Shown in pieces: positions 5,592 through 14,771 of a stretch of 55,909 bases of DNA; the first letter of the stretch is position 1; each line of letters opens with the position of its first letter. The notes beneath the pieces were generated by a model that searched no databases, was not told where the DNA came from, and was given only the letters and a program-made list of their open reading frames with translations. Source of the stretch: a virus; IMG/VR virus record IMGVR_UViG_3300030106_002604, positions 1 to 55,909 of that record; one strand, given 5' to 3'. The translations under genes were made by a program, and so were the position numbers.

Positions 5592-5861
5592 TTATTTTTT
5601 GGTAGAATTTAGTAGATCTCCAACAGCCCATCCAGCTTCTAGGTCGTCTAACCATATCTTTTTTTCTTTTTTAAGAAAATCCCAAGCAAACTCTATAAAG
5701 CTGTCCTCATTTAGGGAACTTCCTTCAAGTTTCCACCACTTGTCAAATAGTTTATTGCAATGTTCGTATGGAGCGTTTTGTATATCAAAGGAAAAATTGC
5801 ATTGATAAGCTTGAGTGAACCAGAAATAAGCTTTGTCAGTTTTGTCAAATCGTATTTTCAT
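5592..5861 (-). CDS. Hypothetical protein rich in aromatics (89 aa)
   Basis: An 89-residue soluble protein with many Trp/Phe/Tyr residues (AYFWFTQAYQCNFSF, KWWKLEG) and an acidic C-terminal half. No membrane segment or known domain. It is the first gene after the tRNA-like element at 5895-5988, so a processing event there would leave it with a leader of about 34 bases. Confidence 0.55.
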   Translation of the reverse strand: MKIRFDKTDKAYFWFTQAYQCNFSFDIQNAPYEHCNKLFDKWWKLEGSSLNEDSFIEFAWDFLKKEKKIWLDDLEAGWAVGDLLNSTKK

Positions 5862-5894: not shown

Positions 5895-5988
5895 GTGAGC
5901 AAGAGGAATCGAACCTCAATGCATAACCAATAAAAGCAGTCAATCGGGTAGGGGCATCACACCCTAGCGGATCTTGCCAGACGCTCAC
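5895..5988 (-). tRNA. Divergent type II tRNA-like structure, anticodon not assignable
   Basis: Read on the minus strand, 94 nt fold with a 7-bp acceptor stem (GTGAGCG with TGCTCAC), a T-arm with canonical loop TTCGATT, a 4-5-bp D-like arm and a possible 5-bp variable arm (CCGAT with ATTGG). The anticodon arm is irregular: TAGGG/CCCTA closes an 8-nt loop, or GGGTG/TACCC closes a 9-nt loop, so no anticodon is safe. The D loop lacks the usual GG, and no CCA is encoded. It may be a decayed tRNA or a tRNA mimic. It sits between two small genes of the leftward operon. Confidence 0.45.
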
Positions 5989-8183: not shown

Positions 8184-8354
8184 TTAGTGTATGATTGTGT
8201 TATCAAAATCGTGAGTCATAAATTCGATATCCTTTAGCCTAAAGCCTTGTTCATCTATCCACTTTTCAACGTCCTCTATTTGAGCGCCTACTAGGTGTTC
8301 GGGCAGGTTATACTGATGCACCTTACCACTTGCGAAGTCTAAGATTGTAATCAT
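8184..8354 (-). CDS. Small hypothetical protein downstream of the ribozyme (56 aa)
   Basis: A 56-residue acidic protein (MITILDFASGKVHQYNL...). It reads as a small alpha/beta domain with a DVEKWIDEQGF helix. A longer in-frame version starting at 8399 would run through the hammerhead cleavage site, so ATG 8354 is preferred. That ATG lies 26 bases after the predicted cleavage point, leaving a short A/T-rich leader with a 5'-OH end. The family was not recognised. Confidence 0.55.
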   Translation of the reverse strand: MITILDFASGKVHQYNLPEHLVGAQIEDVEKWIDEQGFRLKDIEFMTHDFDNTIIH

Positions 8355-8374
8355 AATGTGTAAATTTTTAAATT

Positions 8375-8504
8375 GACATAGACTACCCTCTGCAAACACC
8401 TTCAGATTTTTTTACACGTTAGGCAAACAGGGATACAAGTGATATGTTTGCGTGTGCTTGTCTGCGTTGGGTAGTTTCGACTAATCGAGTCTCATCAGTA
8501 TGCC
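8375..8504 (-). ncRNA. Type I hammerhead self-cleaving ribozyme
   Basis: All core elements are present on the minus strand in order. Stem I 5' strand GGCATA (8504-8499), then CTGATGA, then stem II GACT-CGATT-AGTC, then GAA, then stem III ACTACCC (8475-8469). A loop of about 80 nt follows, then GGGTAGT (8388-8382), the cleavage nucleotide C (8381), and stem I 3' strand TATGTC (8380-8375). Stem I has 6 bp, stem II 4 and stem III 7. Stem I is open-ended, so it is type I. The stem III loop can form a further hairpin (GCAAAC with GTTTGC, flanked by ACAC/GTGT). Cleavage would fall between 8381 and 8380, just upstream of the next gene. The ribozyme begins at the last base of the upstream stop codon. 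Confidence 0.92.
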
Positions 8505-8929
8505 TATAATAATATTTCTTTCTGGTTTTTACAGTCATAAATTGCGATTTCGCCGCGTTTTTTCGCTATGTCCGTAGCTACGTCTAGGTTATACAGGTGT
8601 TGCACAAGGTCGAAGTATATCTGTCCTTCGTGTACCCATGTGCCTACACCCATGCCTGCCTTGTACAAGTTGCTTGTGTAATCGCCAAGTTTTAGTTGAT
8701 ACTTATCCCATAGCTTTTTGAACGCTTTGAAGTGTGTGCTCACATCAGGGTATGCGCTCCCGTCAACCTCTGCGTACATAGTGGTTGGTTCAGTTAGACC
8801 ACCTACGATGTAACCTTCGGTTGGGTTGGTTTTGCCGTCTGCAAGGCTTGTATACCCACCGTCTATGAGCGTATTGGCGTACGGTATACGCTTCTCGTAT
8901 TCTTTCAGTAAGTTCATAGAATAATTCAT
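8504..8929 (-). CDS. Hypothetical protein (141 aa) upstream of the ribozyme
   Basis: A 141-residue soluble protein, with Gly/Tyr-rich stretches (NTLIDGGYTSLADG, then EGYIVGGLTEPTT) and a helical C-terminal half. Function unknown; no signal peptide. Its TAG stop shares its last base with the first base of hammerhead stem I, so its mRNA would gain a defined 3' end by ribozyme cleavage about 120 nt downstream. Confidence 0.6.
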   Translation of the reverse strand: MNYSMNLLKEYEKRIPYANTLIDGGYTSLADGKTNPTEGYIVGGLTEPTTMYAEVDGSAYPDVSTHFKAFKKLWDKYQLKLGDYTSNLYKAGMGVGTWVHEGQIYFDLVQHLYNLDVATDIAKKRGEIAIYDCKNQKEILL

Positions 8930-8962
8930 GATGTATAAAATTTTGGTTTGTAAGAGGGTTTA

Positions 8963-8995
8963 TATACTACTCTCATAAATGAGAGGAGTAGTATA
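8963..8995 (-). other. Strong inverted repeat upstream of the 8504-8929 gene
   Basis: TATACTACT...AGTAGTATA with an inner CTCAT/ATGAG pair and a short bulge forms a stable stem-loop. A smaller perfect repeat, AACCTT-CTA-AAGGTT, follows at 8999-9013. Together with the minihelix at 9016-9060 this makes the 139-base gap almost entirely structured. No T-run follows on the minus strand, so it is more likely an RNA-stability or processing element, or a DNA operator, than an intrinsic terminator. Confidence 0.6.
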
Positions 8996-9015
8996 TTAAA
9001 CCTTCTAAAGGTTAG

Positions 9016-9060
9016 AGCCAAGAGGGGATTCGAACCCCTTCGCACCCTGTGTGCTTGGCT
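9016..9060 (-). ncRNA. tRNA-like acceptor/T-arm minihelix
   Basis: On the minus strand AGCCAAG (9060-9054) pairs perfectly with CTTGGCT (9022-9016), and directly inside the 3' half lies a perfect 5-bp T-stem AGGGG/CCCCT closing the canonical loop TTCGAAT. This is exactly the tRNA top half (7+5 bp, no spacer). The roughly 40 bases of D and anticodon arms are replaced by 14 bases holding a 3-bp hairpin (CAC...GTG). No CCA is encoded. It begins eight bases after the stop of the Lys-rich gene. It may be a tRNA remnant or a minimal RNase P/Z substrate. Confidence 0.65.
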
Positions 9061-9068
9061 TGTGTGTG

Positions 9069-9464
9069 TTACGCCACCTGTGGCGCACCGTCCATGAGCG
9101 CCTTGCAGTAGCGAACAGCATCTTCAACTGAGTAACCTATCGAACGAAGTTCGCTGAATTCAGGTAGCGTATTCACCTCTGCAACGTCTTCGGGTATGAA
9201 GTTCTCAGCTATCGCTGATTGCTTTTGCGCTTGCGCCTCGAGCTTTTGGTTTTTCGAAACCTTTCGCTTTGCCTTGCGCTTTGGCTTGCGCTTTGGTGTA
9301 GGTGCTACTTCTTCGAGGTTAGACACAAAGTTGGCTAAAGTCTCCATAGACTCTGACAGCTCCCTAAGGAGCTTCACAGCGTGTGCCTTGCGCTCTGCTG
9401 TAGGGTTGAACTTCGCTTGATTAAAGGCTTTCTTTGCCTGCTTGATGAGTGTGCTTGTAAGCAT
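9069..9464 (-). CDS. Lys/Arg-rich DNA-binding-like protein, first leftward gene
   Basis: A 131-residue protein. Residues about 1-40 are helical (LIKQAKKAFNQAKFN). A middle tract of about 20 residues is almost only Lys, Arg and Pro (PKRKPKRKAKRK), as in histone H1-like tails. The C-terminal part is acidic and helical (SVEDAVRYCKALMDG). I infer nucleic-acid binding; no family was recognised. ATG 9464 lies about 40 bases after the predicted start of transcription from the 9513-9544 promoter, making this the first leftward gene. Confidence 0.6.
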   Translation of the reverse strand: MLTSTLIKQAKKAFNQAKFNPTAERKAHAVKLLRELSESMETLANFVSNLEEVAPTPKRKPKRKAKRKVSKNQKLEAQAQKQSAIAENFIPEDVAEVNTLPEFSELRSIGYSVEDAVRYCKALMDGAPQVA

Positions 9465-9512
9465 GATGTAAGATTTTTGGTTTGTACCCTTCGATTTTCG
9501 AAAAGCATACCA

Positions 9513-9544
9513 CAAAGATAGGGAAATAAAACACCGATGTCAAA
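9513..9544 (-). promoter_or_regulatory. Consensus Bacteroidota leftward promoter
   Basis: On the minus strand TTTG (9544-9541) is followed after exactly 20 bases by TATCTTTG (9520-9513), a full match to TTTG-N19-21-TAnnTTTG. It would start the leftward operon about 45 bases before ATG 9464. This is the best promoter in the window and implies use of the host primary sigma factor. Confidence 0.85.
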
Positions 9545-9694
9545 TTTTTTAGGGATTAATTTCGTGCGCGATTTCTCCCGCAGGAAGGTTACGAAGTAAC
9601 CCGCGTGGAAACAGGCGAAAATTTGGGCTATGGCGCGAGCGCTTGCGAGTGCATGAGGCGCACATGAGGCGAGGGGATTTTGTACTGATAATTG

Positions 9695-9770
9695 AATTGT
9701 CAATACAAAGCTTAATACTAAGCTACGCTTAGTATTATAATTGTCAATACTAAGTAGGAATTATCAATAG
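9695..9770. repeat. Iteron-like repeats around a palindrome
   Basis: AATTGTCAATAC occurs at 9695-9706 and 9739-9750, and a variant AATTATCAATAG at 9759-9770. The first two flank the 10-bp inverted repeat at 9714-9736. The arrangement fits a protein-binding array such as an origin or operator; no cognate binder is identified. Confidence 0.5.
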
Positions 9771-10177
9771 TAAATCCCCTGAAAGGGGAACGTATATTTA
9801 AAGCAAAGGTTTAGGTAGGTGATTGTCCCACGCTTACAATCATTGCAATACGTGCTGCGTTGTGAAGCTATGCTTTAGGTAGATTTACTTAAGTGACTGG
9901 TTTACAGCAGAGTAAAAAGCTAGAATGTATGCGCAAAACTGCAACTTTGTTGCAGGGGGTGGTCAAAAAAAGTCGTTTCGGGTGCGCTACGCTAGCGTCG
10001 TGTAATATATATAATCCCCATCCTCTACATTTCTGGCATTTTTTTCGAGATTGCCTACAGATCTGCCGAAATCTAGCAGGATTCTACACTTATATCAATC
10101 ACGCTAATTTACTTTAGAGGCCATAACGCTGTGATTTGCAACTTTTTAGATGCTGTTTCTTAAATAATCTCTTTAAT

Positions 10178-10209
10178 CTTGACTTTTAAAAAAAAAGTTT
10201 ATACCTTTA
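10178..10209 (+). promoter_or_regulatory. Rightward promoter for the late arm
   Basis: TTGA (10179-10182), an A-tract and TACCTTTA (10202-10209), seven of eight positions of the TAnnTTTG box, with host-type spacing. It lies about 90 bases before ATG 10299. A possible 18-codon leader ORF (about 10221-10277) follows but is not convincing. Confidence 0.5.
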
Positions 10210-10298
10210 CGGCATCGACAATGAAGATGATAGGCTGTTCAGATGTATTTTTGTATGTACTGAAGAGTCTATTGTAGTTTAAACGCAAGAATAGTTGT

Positions 10299-10592
10299 AT
10301 GCGAGTAAAAAAGAGAGACCCTAAGGTAGGTACTGGGAAGAAACCCAAAGGATCTGGTAGAAGACTCTACACAGACGAGAATCCTAAGGATACTGTCCGC
10401 ATTAAGTTTGCTACACCAGCAGATGCTAGAGCTACTGTTGCTAAAGTTAAGAGAAGTGGGAAACCATTTGCAAGAAAAATACAGATTCTTACTGTAGGAG
10501 AACAGAGAGCAAAGGTGATGAAGAAGAATGAAGTGGTGAATATATTTAAAAAGGGTAAAGACTCTATACGTCGTGAAAGTAAAAAAGAATAA
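10299..10592 (+). CDS. Conserved basic marine-phage protein
   Basis: A 97-residue basic protein beginning MRVKKRDPKVGTGKKPKGSG, then RRLYTDENPKDTV and a C-terminal alpha/beta segment ending in a Lys/Arg-rich tail. The PKGSGRRLYTDENPKDTV stretch recurs in conserved hypothetical proteins of marine phages; function unknown. It is the first rightward gene after the promoter at 10178-10209 and overlaps the next small gene by 20 bases. Confidence 0.7.
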   Translation: MRVKKRDPKVGTGKKPKGSGRRLYTDENPKDTVRIKFATPADARATVAKVKRSGKPFARKIQILTVGEQRAKVMKKNEVVNIFKKGKDSIRRESKKE

Positions 10593-10692
10593 ATTTGTAG
10601 CTAGCGAAATAAAAAAGCTAATGAAGAAGGGTAAGCCTATGAAACAGGCTGTTGCCATAGCTCTGAGCATGTATGAAAGGAAAAATAAATAA
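10573..10692 (+). CDS. Small protein with KKGKPMKQAVAIAL motif (39 aa)
   Basis: GTG start 10573-10575 to TAA 10690-10692. The C-terminal half (KLMKKGKPMKQAVAIALSMY) matches a short motif frequent in small phage proteins, including DUF6496-like ones. An internal ATG could also serve as start. The TATATTTG promoter of the next gene begins four bases after its stop. Function unknown. Confidence 0.6.
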   Translation: MKVKKNKFVASEIKKLMKKGKPMKQAVAIALSMYERKNK

Positions 10693-10695
10693 CCT

Positions 10696-10703
10696 TATAT
10701 TTG
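10696..10703 (+). promoter_or_regulatory. Late promoter box, 4 bases before ATG
   Basis: TATATTTG matches TAnnTTTG. Only four bases (CATC) separate it from ATG 10708, so transcription would begin at about the A of the start codon. There is no TTTG box about 20 bases upstream. Confidence 0.55.
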
Positions 10704-10707
10704 CATC

Positions 10708-11370
10708 ATGCCACACACGCCCGATCATAAAGGACTCTTGAAGACAGATAGATTGTCAGCTTCAGAAAGAAGTAGACTTCGTACCTTGAGGAGAAAGAAA
10801 AAAAGTGGATCTTTATCTGGCAGTCAGCTTGCAGAGCTTAAAGGTTTAAGAAAACAAAGAAGAAAAGCTATAGGTAAAGACTTATTAAAAGCAGGTGCAT
10901 TAGTTGGAGGAGCAGCTTTAGCAGCACCAGCCTTAGCTGGAGGAGCAGCAGCAGCAGCGGGAGGTACAGGTGCAGCAGGTGCAGGAGGTGCAGGAGCAGG
11001 TAAATTACTAGGGTTAGGTAAGTTGGGTAAGTTAGGTAAGGCTATTGAGGGTGCAGATAAGCTAGGTAAAATAGGTAAAGCTGTTGAGGGTGCAGATAAG
11101 CTAGGTAAATTAAAAAAGGCTGTTGATGTTGTAGGCGACGTTAAGGAAGTTGCAGAAGGTGTAAAAGAAGTAACAGGAGCATTAGGTGATGTTAAAGATT
11201 TAGTAGCTCCTAAGCCTTTAATGGAAGATATGATTGGAGAACCACAACCTATACAGCCTACACAGCTACCTCAGATAGACAATACTGTACAAGGTGGTGG
11301 GCTTGCTGGTTTAGCAAATACTTTTAAGTATGGCGGTAGAGTTAGAAAGAAAAAGAAAAAGAAAATATAA
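10708..11370 (+). CDS. Ala/Gly-rich repetitive basic virion protein candidate
   Basis: A 220-residue protein. Residues 1-60 are basic and helical (RSRLRTLRRKKKSG). Residues about 65-100 are an Ala/Gly low-complexity stretch that may be membrane-active. Residues about 100-145 contain tandem repeats of KLGK(L/I)GKA(I/V)EGAD. The tail is Pro-rich and ends KYGGRVRKKKKKKI. It resembles small internal virion proteins of podoviruses in composition, but no family was recognised. It carries the GG-Lys/Arg motif shared with several small late proteins. It abuts the next gene by one base (TAATG). Confidence 0.6.
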   Translation: MPHTPDHKGLLKTDRLSASERSRLRTLRRKKKSGSLSGSQLAELKGLRKQRRKAIGKDLLKAGALVGGAALAAPALAGGAAAAAGGTGAAGAGGAGAGKLLGLGKLGKLGKAIEGADKLGKIGKAVEGADKLGKLKKAVDVVGDVKEVAEGVKEVTGALGDVKDLVAPKPLMEDMIGEPQPIQPTQLPQIDNTVQGGGLAGLANTFKYGGRVRKKKKKKI

Positions 11371-11801
11371 TGGCAACATTAAACGTAACCATAACAGAAG
11401 ACTTAACATTAAGTGGTCAAACAATAGGGAGTAGTAATACAGCTTCTTATAGTGTCACATCTGTCGATCATAGAATTATTACATGCACTGTAACAGAACA
11501 AACAGTTCTTTTGTTTAATAGTGCTGATGCAGCTGGAACAATAAAAGATGCAACTCTTAAATACTTAAGACTTACAAACCTAGATACTACAAACTTTATA
11601 GTTATAAGAGTAAAAGGAAACAGCGAAGAATACTTTCAAAAGGTTCCTGCAGGATCTAGCTTTTTGTTAACTGACAGTCAAATGGACGCTAATGCTACAG
11701 GAGGACAGAGTTTATCACTAGCCAATATAGATGAAATATCTATTGATGCAGATTCAGCTTCTGTAGATGTAGAAGTTTATGCAGCGTCAGACCCATCATA
11801 A
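11370..11801 (+). CDS. Small beta-rich virion protein candidate
   Basis: A 143-residue Thr/Ser/Val-rich protein with alternating strands (MATLNVTITEDLTLSG...), no signal peptide. Composition and layout resemble the small beta-sandwich proteins at 28462, 28860 and 29278, so I infer a virion decoration or spike component. It is coupled to the gene before it by TAATG. Confidence 0.6.
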   Translation: MATLNVTITEDLTLSGQTIGSSNTASYSVTSVDHRIITCTVTEQTVLLFNSADAAGTIKDATLKYLRLTNLDTTNFIVIRVKGNSEEYFQKVPAGSSFLLTDSQMDANATGGQSLSLANIDEISIDADSASVDVEVYAASDPS

Positions 11802-11810
11802 TTATATAAT

Positions 11811-13490
11811 ATGAAAATAAAAAAATTCGGACACGGGGGAATGATGAGCGACAACGGTAAGCTCGCTATCATGATTAAAAGATTTCTAAGCGGAGGAAAA
11901 CTCTATAGGCATGGTGGTGAGTTTCATAACGCTCAAGGACAACCTACTAACGAAAAAGGAGAGCGTATACCAGATGATCCGCTTGTAGCAGTTGCATCTG
12001 ATGCGGAACGTAGATCTGGAGCAGCTGGTGATGATGGTTCTGCACAAACAGGTAGGATAAGAGGGGGAACAACACGACCTGAGCAACAAACAGGTAGCAC
12101 TATAGCTACTCCAGAGCAAGCTGAATTAATGACTCAAGGAACAGGTGAAGGAACTGTGGCATCTTTTAATACAGAGCCTATATCTCCAGACATGTCTCAA
12201 GATCAGTTTGAACTAGCTATGCAGTCTCCGTTTGTTGCTGAACAGTTTAAAGGAATGGATATCCAAACTCCACAGCAGCTTGCAGAAGCTTACGAAGGTT
12301 TTAAATCTCAGGCAACTTCAGCCATCAGAGAAAACGAGGAAGGAGTTGCTAATGCTGCAAGAGAGCTTGCTAAGACTAATGAGAACTTTAGAATAAAATT
12401 AGAAACCTTAGGTGACAACCCAACAGATAAAGAAATAGCTGATTTAATGATACAGCAAAATACTGATGGCTTGCTTGGTGATCTACACGGAGCAGTTGTT
12501 GATCAGTTCTTACCTGCAACGCAACTTAACGCATTTTATTTCCCCCGCTATCAAGAAGTAGGTAAACGCTTTGTAACCGAGACTACTATTAATGGTCAAA
12601 AAGTAGCTGCAGATAAACCTATTTTTACTAGCATACAGGATAAAGGAATAAAGACTAAAGCTGGGATGGAAAAACTTTTCCAAGATGCAACCGACGCTGG
12701 AGTAGACTTAACAAAAAACATAGCTGCAACAGAGGATTTTTTAAGAACTTGGTTTACAGATTCAGCCAATGAAGAATTTATTTCAACTGCACAAGGCGTT
12801 GAAAGAATGATTACGGGAGGAACTGGTATAAACGATATAAAACGTCCAGAGTTTATTAAGACGATGTTTATGGATGCCATGAAGAAAGAGAATTCAACAG
12901 TTCCAACATTTGACCAAATGGGTGAATACCGTCAACTCATAAAGCTCAGGGGTCAGGAGGCAGCCGATGCATTTGCTGAAAGGGAAGGTTTTGATCCAAC
13001 TCGTCAATTGGGTAAAAGTGAAAATTTCAAAGTTATTAAGAACGGAGATAAAACTAAACAAGATACTGAGGCAGCTTTGCAATCTAGATCGGATCAAGCA
13101 GAAGAAAAAGCAAGGGAGAGATACAGAAGTATGAATCCTAATTTCGATGCTCGAATGACCGAAATGGAACAGATAGAGGCTTATAACGAAAAGGAAGGCA
13201 CAAACTTTAGGAGCTATTCTGCCATGATGGAGGATATGCAAAGAAAAACTAAAGATGCTTTTCAAGAGAGAAAGAGAGAGGGGATGGAGAATATTAAGGA
13301 AGAGAGGAGACAAGAATTCTTAGACGAGTATTTTAAAAGTAGAGGAATAAACCGTACAGAGGCTACTGAATTTCAATTGGCGTTAGCAGATAGGGCTTTT
13401 GAAAGATCATTTGGTCAGGGCGGAATGAGAGTTCTTAAACGTGCAGGTAAATCTCCTATAGGTGCGTTATCTGCATTGTTTAAAAAATAG
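11811..13490 (+). CDS. Late virion-associated protein with N-terminal KxGG motifs
   Basis: A 559-residue hydrophilic protein. The N terminus (MKIKKFGHGGMM, LSGGKLYRHGGEF) repeats the GG-Lys motif of several small late proteins. Residues about 40-110 are disordered and Gly/Thr/Gln-rich. The rest is helical, with a charged coiled-coil-like region at about 420-520. Its size, late position and composition suggest an internal or minor structural protein. No catalytic motif is seen. Its stop is immediately followed by the stop of a convergent minus-strand gene. Confidence 0.6.
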   Translation: MKIKKFGHGGMMSDNGKLAIMIKRFLSGGKLYRHGGEFHNAQGQPTNEKGERIPDDPLVAVASDAERRSGAAGDDGSAQTGRIRGGTTRPEQQTGSTIATPEQAELMTQGTGEGTVASFNTEPISPDMSQDQFELAMQSPFVAEQFKGMDIQTPQQLAEAYEGFKSQATSAIRENEEGVANAARELAKTNENFRIKLETLGDNPTDKEIADLMIQQNTDGLLGDLHGAVVDQFLPATQLNAFYFPRYQEVGKRFVTETTINGQKVAADKPIFTSIQDKGIKTKAGMEKLFQDATDAGVDLTKNIAATEDFLRTWFTDSANEEFISTAQGVERMITGGTGINDIKRPEFIKTMFMDAMKKENSTVPTFDQMGEYRQLIKLRGQEAADAFAEREGFDPTRQLGKSENFKVIKNGDKTKQDTEAALQSRSDQAEEKARERYRSMNPNFDARMTEMEQIEAYNEKEGTNFRSYSAMMEDMQRKTKDAFQERKREGMENIKEERRQEFLDEYFKSRGINRTEATEFQLALADRAFERSFGQGGMRVLKRAGKSPIGALSALFKK

Positions 13491-14078
13491 TTAATTAGAA
13501 CTCCATCCGTGGTACGGCTCGTCAGTAAAGCAGTTGTACATGTATGTGTTTTTCCCATCTATGCTTAACCCGCAGTGCTTTTGACCAGCTTCAAGCTTGA
13601 TGTTTCTTCTTATACCTAAAGTATTTCTGTAGTAAAAGCCCTCACCAATATTAGCAGCTGTTGCACCTAACAACTCTCCAGTTTCTTTATTACGAGCGTA
13701 TACGTGGTATATACCAAACCCATTACATTCAAAGGTCATAATGATTTGACCATCATGCTCCGCAGTTTGAACTCTGTTACTCTCTATTGATCTGGCAATA
13801 AACTCATCATCAATAACTGGGTCGTACCTGTATGATCGACGAACTCTTTCATCGTAAGGGGTTGTCCAGTAGTATGTATTGTCACAATCTGTACAATTAG
13901 GGTCATGAGGAGCATCGTAGTTAGGATCTTTCCAAACCTCCCACATGATTAAAGACCTGTCAACTCCACCTTGATTAAAAGCACAGCTTATAACTACAGT
14001 GCTACCTCTTGTTGGTTCGTCTTGCGCATTTACTGTTATGGATAGTAATGCTGCAGTAAATAAAAATAAATTTCTCAT
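13491..14078 (-). CDS. Secreted protein of unknown function (minus-strand island)
   Basis: A 195-residue protein with a clear signal peptide, MRNLFLFTAALLSITVNAQ, whose NAQ end is typical of Bacteroidota. An upstream ATG would add eight residues and weaken the signal. The mature part has several Cys (CTDCDN, FECNG, KHCG, YNCF) that could form disulfides in the periplasm, and many Tyr/Asp. No domain was recognised. It is opposed to the surrounding late genes and shares a 174-base divergent region with the endolysin candidate, so it may be a separately controlled cargo gene. A possible minus promoter (TTTG-N20-TATACTGA) lies upstream. Confidence 0.65.
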   Translation of the reverse strand: MRNLFLFTAALLSITVNAQDEPTRGSTVVISCAFNQGGVDRSLIMWEVWKDPNYDAPHDPNCTDCDNTYYWTTPYDERVRRSYRYDPVIDDEFIARSIESNRVQTAEHDGQIIMTFECNGFGIYHVYARNKETGELLGATAANIGEGFYYRNTLGIRRNIKLEAGQKHCGLSIDGKNTYMYNCFTDEPYHGWSSN

Positions 14079-14252
14079 AACGTATAAATTAAGGGTTAAC
14101 AAATCAGTCGTATATTTGGACTGCTGATCTCAGTATACGATAAAGTTTTCGTAAAAACAAATTTTGATTGAAAAAAAAATATTTCAACGCTAAGAAAAAA
14201 CGTAAGGAATCATCAGTAGAAGCTGAGAAAATAAGACTGAATAAATTAAAAA
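14079..14252. promoter_or_regulatory. Divergent intergenic region
   Basis: This region lies between the secreted protein (minus) and the endolysin candidate (plus). It holds a plus-strand TATATTTG box (14111-14118), a CGTATA...TATACG inverted repeat (14109-14139) enclosing that box, and on the minus strand TTTG-N20-TATACTGA. A short TTG-started plus-strand frame is present but unconvincing. Confidence 0.45.
14111..14118 (+). promoter_or_regulatory. Late promoter box upstream of the endolysin candidate
   Basis: TATATTTG, the same octamer found before other late genes, 135 bases before ATG 14253. It lies in the left half of the CGTATA...TATACG inverted repeat, so a bound repressor could control it (inference). 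Confidence 0.5.
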
Positions 14253-14771
14253 ATGAAACTAGAAGTAATAAGATTCAACAAAGGGAAAGATTCAACTAAC
14301 GGTATATTATTCGATATAACAGATGGACCACGAAGATTTCTATGCTACACGCTGGAAGACGAAAGTCGCAAGGAAAAGGTTTACGGAGAAACTTGTATAC
14401 CTGAAGGAGAGTATAATATCGGCTTTAGAACTGTGGGTGGATATCACGCCAAGTACAGTAAGAGATTTGCTGACATACACAAAGGTATGCTTCATGTCTT
14501 GGATGTGCCAAACTTTGAATATATTCTTCTTCACTGTGGTAATACTGATGAGGACACTGCGGGATGTTTACTGCTGGGTGACACGCAAGAAAACAACAAC
14601 ACAAAAAAAGACGGTTTTATAGGAAAGAGTACTACTGCCTACAAGCGTGTATACCCGCCTATAGCAAAAGCATTAGAAGACGGAGAGGAGGTAACTATCG
14701 TATATAGAGATTTTGCAGAAAGCCTTATATTGCAACCGTCGGATATAACTGAATTTTTAGGAGAATGTTAG
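14253..14771 (+). CDS. DUF5675-family protein, endolysin candidate
   Basis: A 172-residue protein without a signal peptide. LCYTLEDE...CIPEGEY near residues 30-55 and the LLHCGNTDEDTAGCLLLG segment (about residues 90-110) match the DUF5675 family. These are small phage and bacterial proteins whose conserved His, Asp and Cys residues suggest an L,D-transpeptidase-like or cell-wall hydrolase fold. No other lysozyme was found in the genome, so this is the best endolysin candidate, acting with the 3TM holin at 52709. The stop overlaps the next gene's start by seven bases. Confidence 0.7.
   Translation: MKLEVIRFNKGKDSTNGILFDITDGPRRFLCYTLEDESRKEKVYGETCIPEGEYNIGFRTVGGYHAKYSKRFADIHKGMLHVLDVPNFEYILLHCGNTDEDTAGCLLLGDTQENNNTKKDGFIGKSTTAYKRVYPPIAKALEDGEEVTIVYRDFAESLILQPSDITEFLGEC

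Follow-up and report, generated by a model that had tools for sequence, protein, structure and literature searches.

A complete type I hammerhead ribozyme predicted between two co-directional phage genes, and its relatives among viral sequences

Type I hammerhead ribozymes were described in phages and prophages in 2011 by Perreault et al., who reported clusters flanking single phage genes and proposed a role in the processing of long phage transcripts (PMC3088659). Arrays of these phage hammerheads cleaved in vitro, one of them also in E. coli, and a halovirus hammerhead was located 13 nt upstream of a helicase start codon (PMC3088659). The role of prokaryotic and phage hammerheads is nonetheless an open question in the field (PMC6155905). 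Here, we analyzed a window of 55,909 nt, i.e., the IMG/VR virus record IMGVR_UViG_3300030106_002604 from position 1 to 55,909, for which an earlier note had proposed a complete type I hammerhead between two co-directional genes, also stating that hammerheads are known in bacterial and phage genomes. At the level of sequence, this proposal is confirmed for positions 8375–8504: the core and stems are complete, homologues covary, and the two flanking cistrons run in the same direction.

Read along the minus strand from 8504 to 8375, the site consists of GGCATA CTGATGA GACT CGATT AGTC GAA ACTACCC, 80 nt, and GGGTAGT C TATGTC, after which the strand continues with AATTTAAAAATTTACACATT and the ATG of the downstream gene. 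All core positions are present (C3 U4 G5 A6 N7 G8 A9, G12 A13 A14, A15.1–U16.1 and C17), as in the CUGANGA ... GAA pattern of type I cores with its A15.1–U16.1 pair and H17 at the cleavage site, and three helices can form, stem I being open at its 5' and 3' ends. The parts are as follows.

8504–8929, minus: upstream gene, 141 aa, phrog_17808, with its TAG stop at 8506–8504.
8375–8504, minus: predicted complete type I hammerhead ribozyme, 130 nt, from the sequence, our own covariance model and covarying homologues.
8499–8504, minus: stem I 5' strand GGCATA, its first base shared with the end of the upstream TAG stop.
8492–8498, minus: catalytic core CUGAUGA, from the sequence.
8479–8491, minus: stem II GACU/AGUC with loop CGAUU, from the sequence; GACC/GGUC in relative L007, a compensatory change.
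8476–8478, minus: core GAA (G12 A13 A14), from the sequence.
8469–8475, minus: stem III 5' strand ACUACCC, beginning with A15.1, from sequence and fold.
8389–8468, minus: predicted structured extension of stem III, 80 nt, from the fold, all pairs also in L007.
8382–8388, minus: stem III 3' strand GGGUAGU, its last base U16.1, from sequence and fold.
8381, minus: cleavage-site base C17, with the predicted cut at 8381/8380, by homology with the hammerhead core.
8375–8380, minus: stem I 3' strand UAUGUC, from the sequence, predicted to become the 5'-OH start of the downstream mRNA.
8355–8380, minus: 26-nt leader of the downstream gene after the predicted cut, including the stem I 3' strand.
8184–8354, minus: downstream gene, 56 aa (MITILDFASGK...), with its ATG at 8354–8352.

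The structural claims of the earlier note held up. The three stems form by exact or wobble pairing, with 6 bp in stem I (including one G.U), 4 bp in stem II and 7 bp in stem III; stem I does begin at 8504, on the last base of the stop codon; and the predicted cut does fall 26 nt before the next start, leaving 8380–8355 as leader ahead of the ATG at 8354. No internal loop was found in the 6-bp stem I, and loop II is CGAUU, compared to the common UNANU. Folded by itself, the window copy has a minimum-energy structure with an alternative pairing at stem II, whereas L007 folds as expected. A family scan of residues 4–56 of the downstream 56-aa protein returned no match.

We evaluated the site with a motif finder that looks for the core and three stems, allows a stem III loop of up to 400 nt, and takes the number of paired bases as its score. 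The window site scored 17, a value reached by none of 200 dinucleotide shuffles of the window, two of which reached 16. Scoring with the Rfam covariance models, which the earlier note had proposed as a check, did not recover it: no family reached its gathering score in a scan of the window, and a permissive scan of the region returned no hammerhead. Across the related loci, compact relatives included, hammerhead models likewise stayed below threshold, the best relative for RF00163 being L028 with 29.1 bits against a threshold of 34. The miss of the window site is likely due to the 80-nt insert combined with membership in this subfamily, since even the compact relatives fail, and the RF00163 gathering score is a search threshold rather than a defining feature of the ribozyme. 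A covariance model built from 24 compact relatives returned the window site as its sole match in the window (E = 5.5e-4), with an alignment restricted to the 5' part because the 80-nt insert breaks it.

Relatives of the upstream gene were identified in eight viral contigs. The same long ribozyme recurs in L007 at a different gene junction, following a short remnant of another gene (MALLEKADHD, then TAG) whose stop codon is completed by the first base of the ribozyme. All 35 structure pairs are kept between the window and L007; one pair in stem II and one in the extension differ at both bases, and one further pair has become G.U. In L003, the ribozyme is compact, a TAAA loop replacing the insert, and L006 carries the same ribozyme as the window up to its contig end. 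L004 encodes the same two neighbor genes without a ribozyme, the stop codon being directly followed by a leader that resembles the one found after the ribozyme in the window; L119 similarly has the downstream gene and no ribozyme. The ribozyme is therefore accessory, and the downstream gene does not need it for expression. We rejected a ribozyme tied to one particular gene, as the neighbors differ between L007 and the window, and from these comparisons the ribozyme moves independently of its neighbor genes.

The 80-nt extension of stem III is itself predicted to fold, with a 3x3 internal loop, a helix GCAGACA (8465–8459)/UGUUUGC (8398–8392), and further helices ACAC (8455–8452)/GUGU (8417–8414) and GCAAACA (8451–8445)/UGUUUGC (8429–8423). 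GCAAACA thus has two possible partners, UGUUUGC at 8429–8423 and at 8398–8392. Compared to shuffles, the extension has the better fold (z = -2.3 and -3.0), and L007 preserves all its pairs while differing by one compensatory and one wobble change; coming from two sequences, this is supportive of the predicted structure and short of conclusive. In the permissive Rfam scan, no RNA family matched the 80 nt and no riboswitch was found in the region. A pattern search of the viral collection detected the extension at full length in one other contig only. A further contig contains it cut off at the contig end, and the other long stem III extensions among relatives differ from it in sequence. Overall, stem III loops are short in most relatives, and about 1/15 of the hammerheads in the group exceed 50 unpaired nt between the two arms of stem III. 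The long stem III is therefore the uncommon feature of the window copy, as the earlier note had suggested; the operon context, which it had also called unusual, is instead the rule (see below). The extension would most likely represent a structured, possibly idle lengthening of the arm most tolerant of insertion.

Beyond these close relatives, hammerheads of this kind form a larger group. A first search pattern, in which the core, three inner stem I pairs and the first stem II pair were fixed and most other stem positions left free, matched 33 stretches in the viral collection. In 31 of 32 distinct first-pattern matches, a count that includes the chance match L045, none of the three free stem II pairs is missing, and 28 of the 32 have all four tested stem III pairs. 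L045, from Thermodesulfovibrio, was the sole match to the ribozyme pattern among GTDB genomes, and was set aside as a chance match lacking the free stem II pairs. Using a different stem I sequence, a second pattern matched 62 stretches, and 69 of the 72 distinct matches of the second scan form all three free stem II pairs. In 24 aligned relatives, each of the 12 tested pairs is formed throughout and 9 of them are changed on both sides; the finder that chose these sequences demands paired stems, which fixes part of the percentage paired in advance but not the double changes. Covariation across the 24 relatives was 0.620, compared to 0.156 for shuffles and ≤0.059 for slid versions of the alignment. 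Compensatory changes among related phages, whose absence together with a background covariance-model score the earlier note would have counted against a ribozyme, were found both between the window and L007 and in the 24 aligned relatives. Pattern scans and motif finder together yielded 141 distinct hammerheads in 89 sequences.

The position of these hammerheads relative to genes is strongly constrained. A sense-strand ATG gene starts within 150 nt downstream of 130 of the 141, with a median leader of 26 nt, compared to 18 hammerheads with an ATG gene within the same distance on the antisense strand. Counting only starts located 18–32 nt away, the contrast is 95 on the sense strand to 0 on the antisense strand. 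Among hammerheads to which an upstream gene could be assigned, the stop codon most often has its end at stem I position 0, 1 or 4 (70 cases), and stem I of the GTAATA class contains the TAA. Leaders in L046 contain a Shine-Dalgarno-like AGGAGG, those of the window and its relatives being A-rich and without AGGAGG. According to our own model, the 22-kb record of L046 contains 14 hammerheads, that of L080 10, and that of L100 6. The 14 of L046 (record G042, 8350–14672) lie on one strand within 6.3 kb, many of them directly before an AGGAGG and the start of a small gene.

Loop II type was associated with the base immediately 3' of stem I: this base is A in 83/83 unique combinations with a UNANU-type loop II, and is not A in 23/33 unique combinations with other loop II types. 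A natural reading of this tie would be a tertiary contact, and the p-value of the tie is inflated by the relatedness of the sequences. In type I hammerheads, rapid cleavage at low Mg depends on such a contact between stem I and loop II. We also scanned 100 proteins, i.e., the upstream gene of the window and 99 genes following a hammerhead in relatives. Five were assigned to phrog_17808 and four to phrog_11100, the rest being scattered, so that the neighbor genes have no common function among the proteins scanned. The phrog_17808 family, upstream of the ribozyme in the window, is also found downstream of hammerheads in relatives, for 4 of these 99 genes.

When compact ribozymes were used as BLAST queries, matches in cultured phages were mostly short chance matches and were rejected, the exceptions being Elemovirus and, once the loci themselves were read, Pelagibacter phage Jormungand, an uncultured Pelagivirus, and Methylophilales phage MEP301. 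Elemovirus includes Flavobacterium phages, to whose terminase the large terminase of the window is 43% identical. Nine Elemovirus records matched a compact-ribozyme query, and the surrounding hammerhead locus was found in 68 of 68 Elemovirus records recovered, all from cultured isolates. In these phages, which infect Flavobacterium sp. BAL314, the ribozyme lies at a matching junction, starts on the last base of a TAG, is followed by an ATG gene, and has one A.A mismatch in stem III. Stem II was read in five isolates: it is GACU/AGUC in elemoA 7-9A, GGUU/AACC in elemoA 15-9B, elemoC 13-1C and elemoB 14-3B, and GACU/AACC, with two mismatches, in elemoF 6-3D. The GACU/AGUC and GGUU/AACC groups share a nearly identical background, and the elemoF 6-3D mismatch may indicate that ribozyme activity is dispensable. 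In four of five Elemovirus records (L110, L114–L117), an annotated 108-nt antisense ORF covers the hammerhead and is likely a gene-caller artefact.

Among loci L107, L108 and L112, the hammerheads of the uncultured Pelagivirus and of Jormungand precede a MarR-like gene and an integrase, and that of MEP301 directly follows a TAG stop. Separately, Alteromonas phage vB_AmeP_PT11-V19 (L113:704–767) contains a type II hammerhead-like sequence, GCC GAAA ... GTC TACCATG ... CATGGTA CTGATGA GGC, upstream of its phage RNA polymerase gene.

In the window, a DnaB-like primase/helicase and an exonuclease VIII-like protein are among the products of the minus-strand genes between 238 and 9515, as expected for an early replication operon. 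Upstream of this operon, at 9544–9513, is a Bacteroidetes-type promoter, TTTG-N-TATCTTTG; the pattern recurs elsewhere in the window and is weak evidence alone. Promoter form and terminase relatives together point to a host among the Bacteroidota. Two further features were observed on this strand. A tRNA-like minihelix is located at 9016–9060, in the gap between the operon's first and second genes, with acceptor AGCCAAG/CTTGGCT, a small hairpin, and T arm GGGGTTCGAATCCCC. It is also present in L001, L004, L005, L007 and L008, with paired changes in the acceptor in L007 and in the T arm in L004. Its best Rfam match was mascRNA, below threshold, and ARAGORN detected no tRNA; this minihelix is possibly a second RNA-processing site, for RNase P/Z. 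The other feature, a T-arm-like GAGGTTCGATTCCTC at about 5903–5917, is found shortly upstream of the gene starting at 5861 and also occurs in L001, and the stretch around it folds no better than shuffles.

Taken together, we favor, with a probability of roughly 0.85, a type I hammerhead that would cut an early polycistronic transcript in cis between two genes. The RNA would fold co-transcriptionally and cut itself after C8381. The upstream mRNA would then terminate in the folded stem II/III structure, carrying a 2',3'-cyclic phosphate, and the downstream mRNA would start from a 5'-OH, with a clean leader of 26 nt. In bacteria, structure at the 3' end of an mRNA impedes 3' exonucleases, and 5'-monophosphate-dependent decay acts poorly on a 5'-OH end. 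The 3' ribozyme structure would accordingly slow 3' exonucleases on one product and the 5'-OH would resist 5'-monophosphate-dependent decay on the other, and the likely benefit would be that translation and decay of the two neighbor genes are uncoupled. The conserved catalytic core and the compensatory changes argue for selection for activity. They make it very improbable that the site is a chance or decayed, inactive hammerhead-like sequence, as the sub-threshold Rfam scores and the two of 200 shuffles within one paired base of its score might otherwise suggest. The same evidence weighs against a recombination linker or selfish insert, i.e., a module that spreads between gene junctions and persists since cutting at a boundary is harmless. 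The same ribozyme at two non-orthologous junctions in close relatives, the empty site between the same neighbors in L004, and the L007 copy following a truncated copy of another gene would all be compatible with such a module; however, neither the tight leader length nor the orientation is expected of a neutral insert, and no attached transposase or repeat was seen, making this reading unlikely overall.

Somewhat less probable still is a natural aptazyme, akin to the ligand or protein sensor raised in the earlier note, in which the extension would bind a metabolite or protein, or switch between folds, and so control cleavage and downstream expression. Better folding than shuffles, the pairs kept between the window and L007, and the two possible partners of GCAAACA would suit such a device, but most relatives have short stem III loops, L003 is compact and lacks the extension, and no Rfam riboswitch matched in the region. 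Moreover, only one other viral contig carries the full-length extension and another a version cut by the contig end, other long extensions are unlike it in sequence, and the kept pairs come from two sequences. Returning to cleavage in cis between genes, we tentatively extend it to a broader scenario, possible if not the probable one, whereby many phages of uncultured hosts punctuate their early operons with stop-fused hammerheads ahead of one gene after another, up to 14 in one 22-kb contig, yielding separate mRNAs with 20–30-nt 5'-OH leaders, and the enlarged stem III of the window serves as a regulatory arm. The recurrent layout of stop, ribozyme, ~26 nt and ATG, the arrays, and the intact, compensated and mismatched stem II variants of Elemovirus make the question of hammerhead roles directly testable.

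Compared to the phage type I hammerheads described previously (PMC3088659; Rfam RF00163, Hammerhead_1), the window group has the same core and type I topology. It differs in scoring below the RF00163 threshold, in its 6-bp stem I without a detected internal loop, in a loop II that covaries with the base just 3' of stem I, and in the stop codon commonly fused to stem I, to which the window copy adds the 80-nt stem III extension. RAGATH-1 (RF03152) shares the core and a short stem I and was the best weak Rfam match for L018 and L044, although relatives scored 27.7–33.4 bits with this model against a threshold of 56.3 and the window gave no match; the RAGATH-1 model also has its own upstream hairpin, and in an unsystematic look none conserved was noticed in the window group. 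The discontinuous hammerhead of rodent Clec2 mRNA likewise includes a long insertion within one stem, in an mRNA (PMC6155905). That ribozyme, located in a eukaryotic 3' UTR, is however an atypical type III whose helix I is very large, whereas the window hammerhead is a type I between phage cistrons and has its insertion in stem III. Transcript processing by phage hammerheads is thus an idea already known, to which the present data add the strictness of the layout, the arrays, the association of loop II with the 3' flank, and a system in culture.
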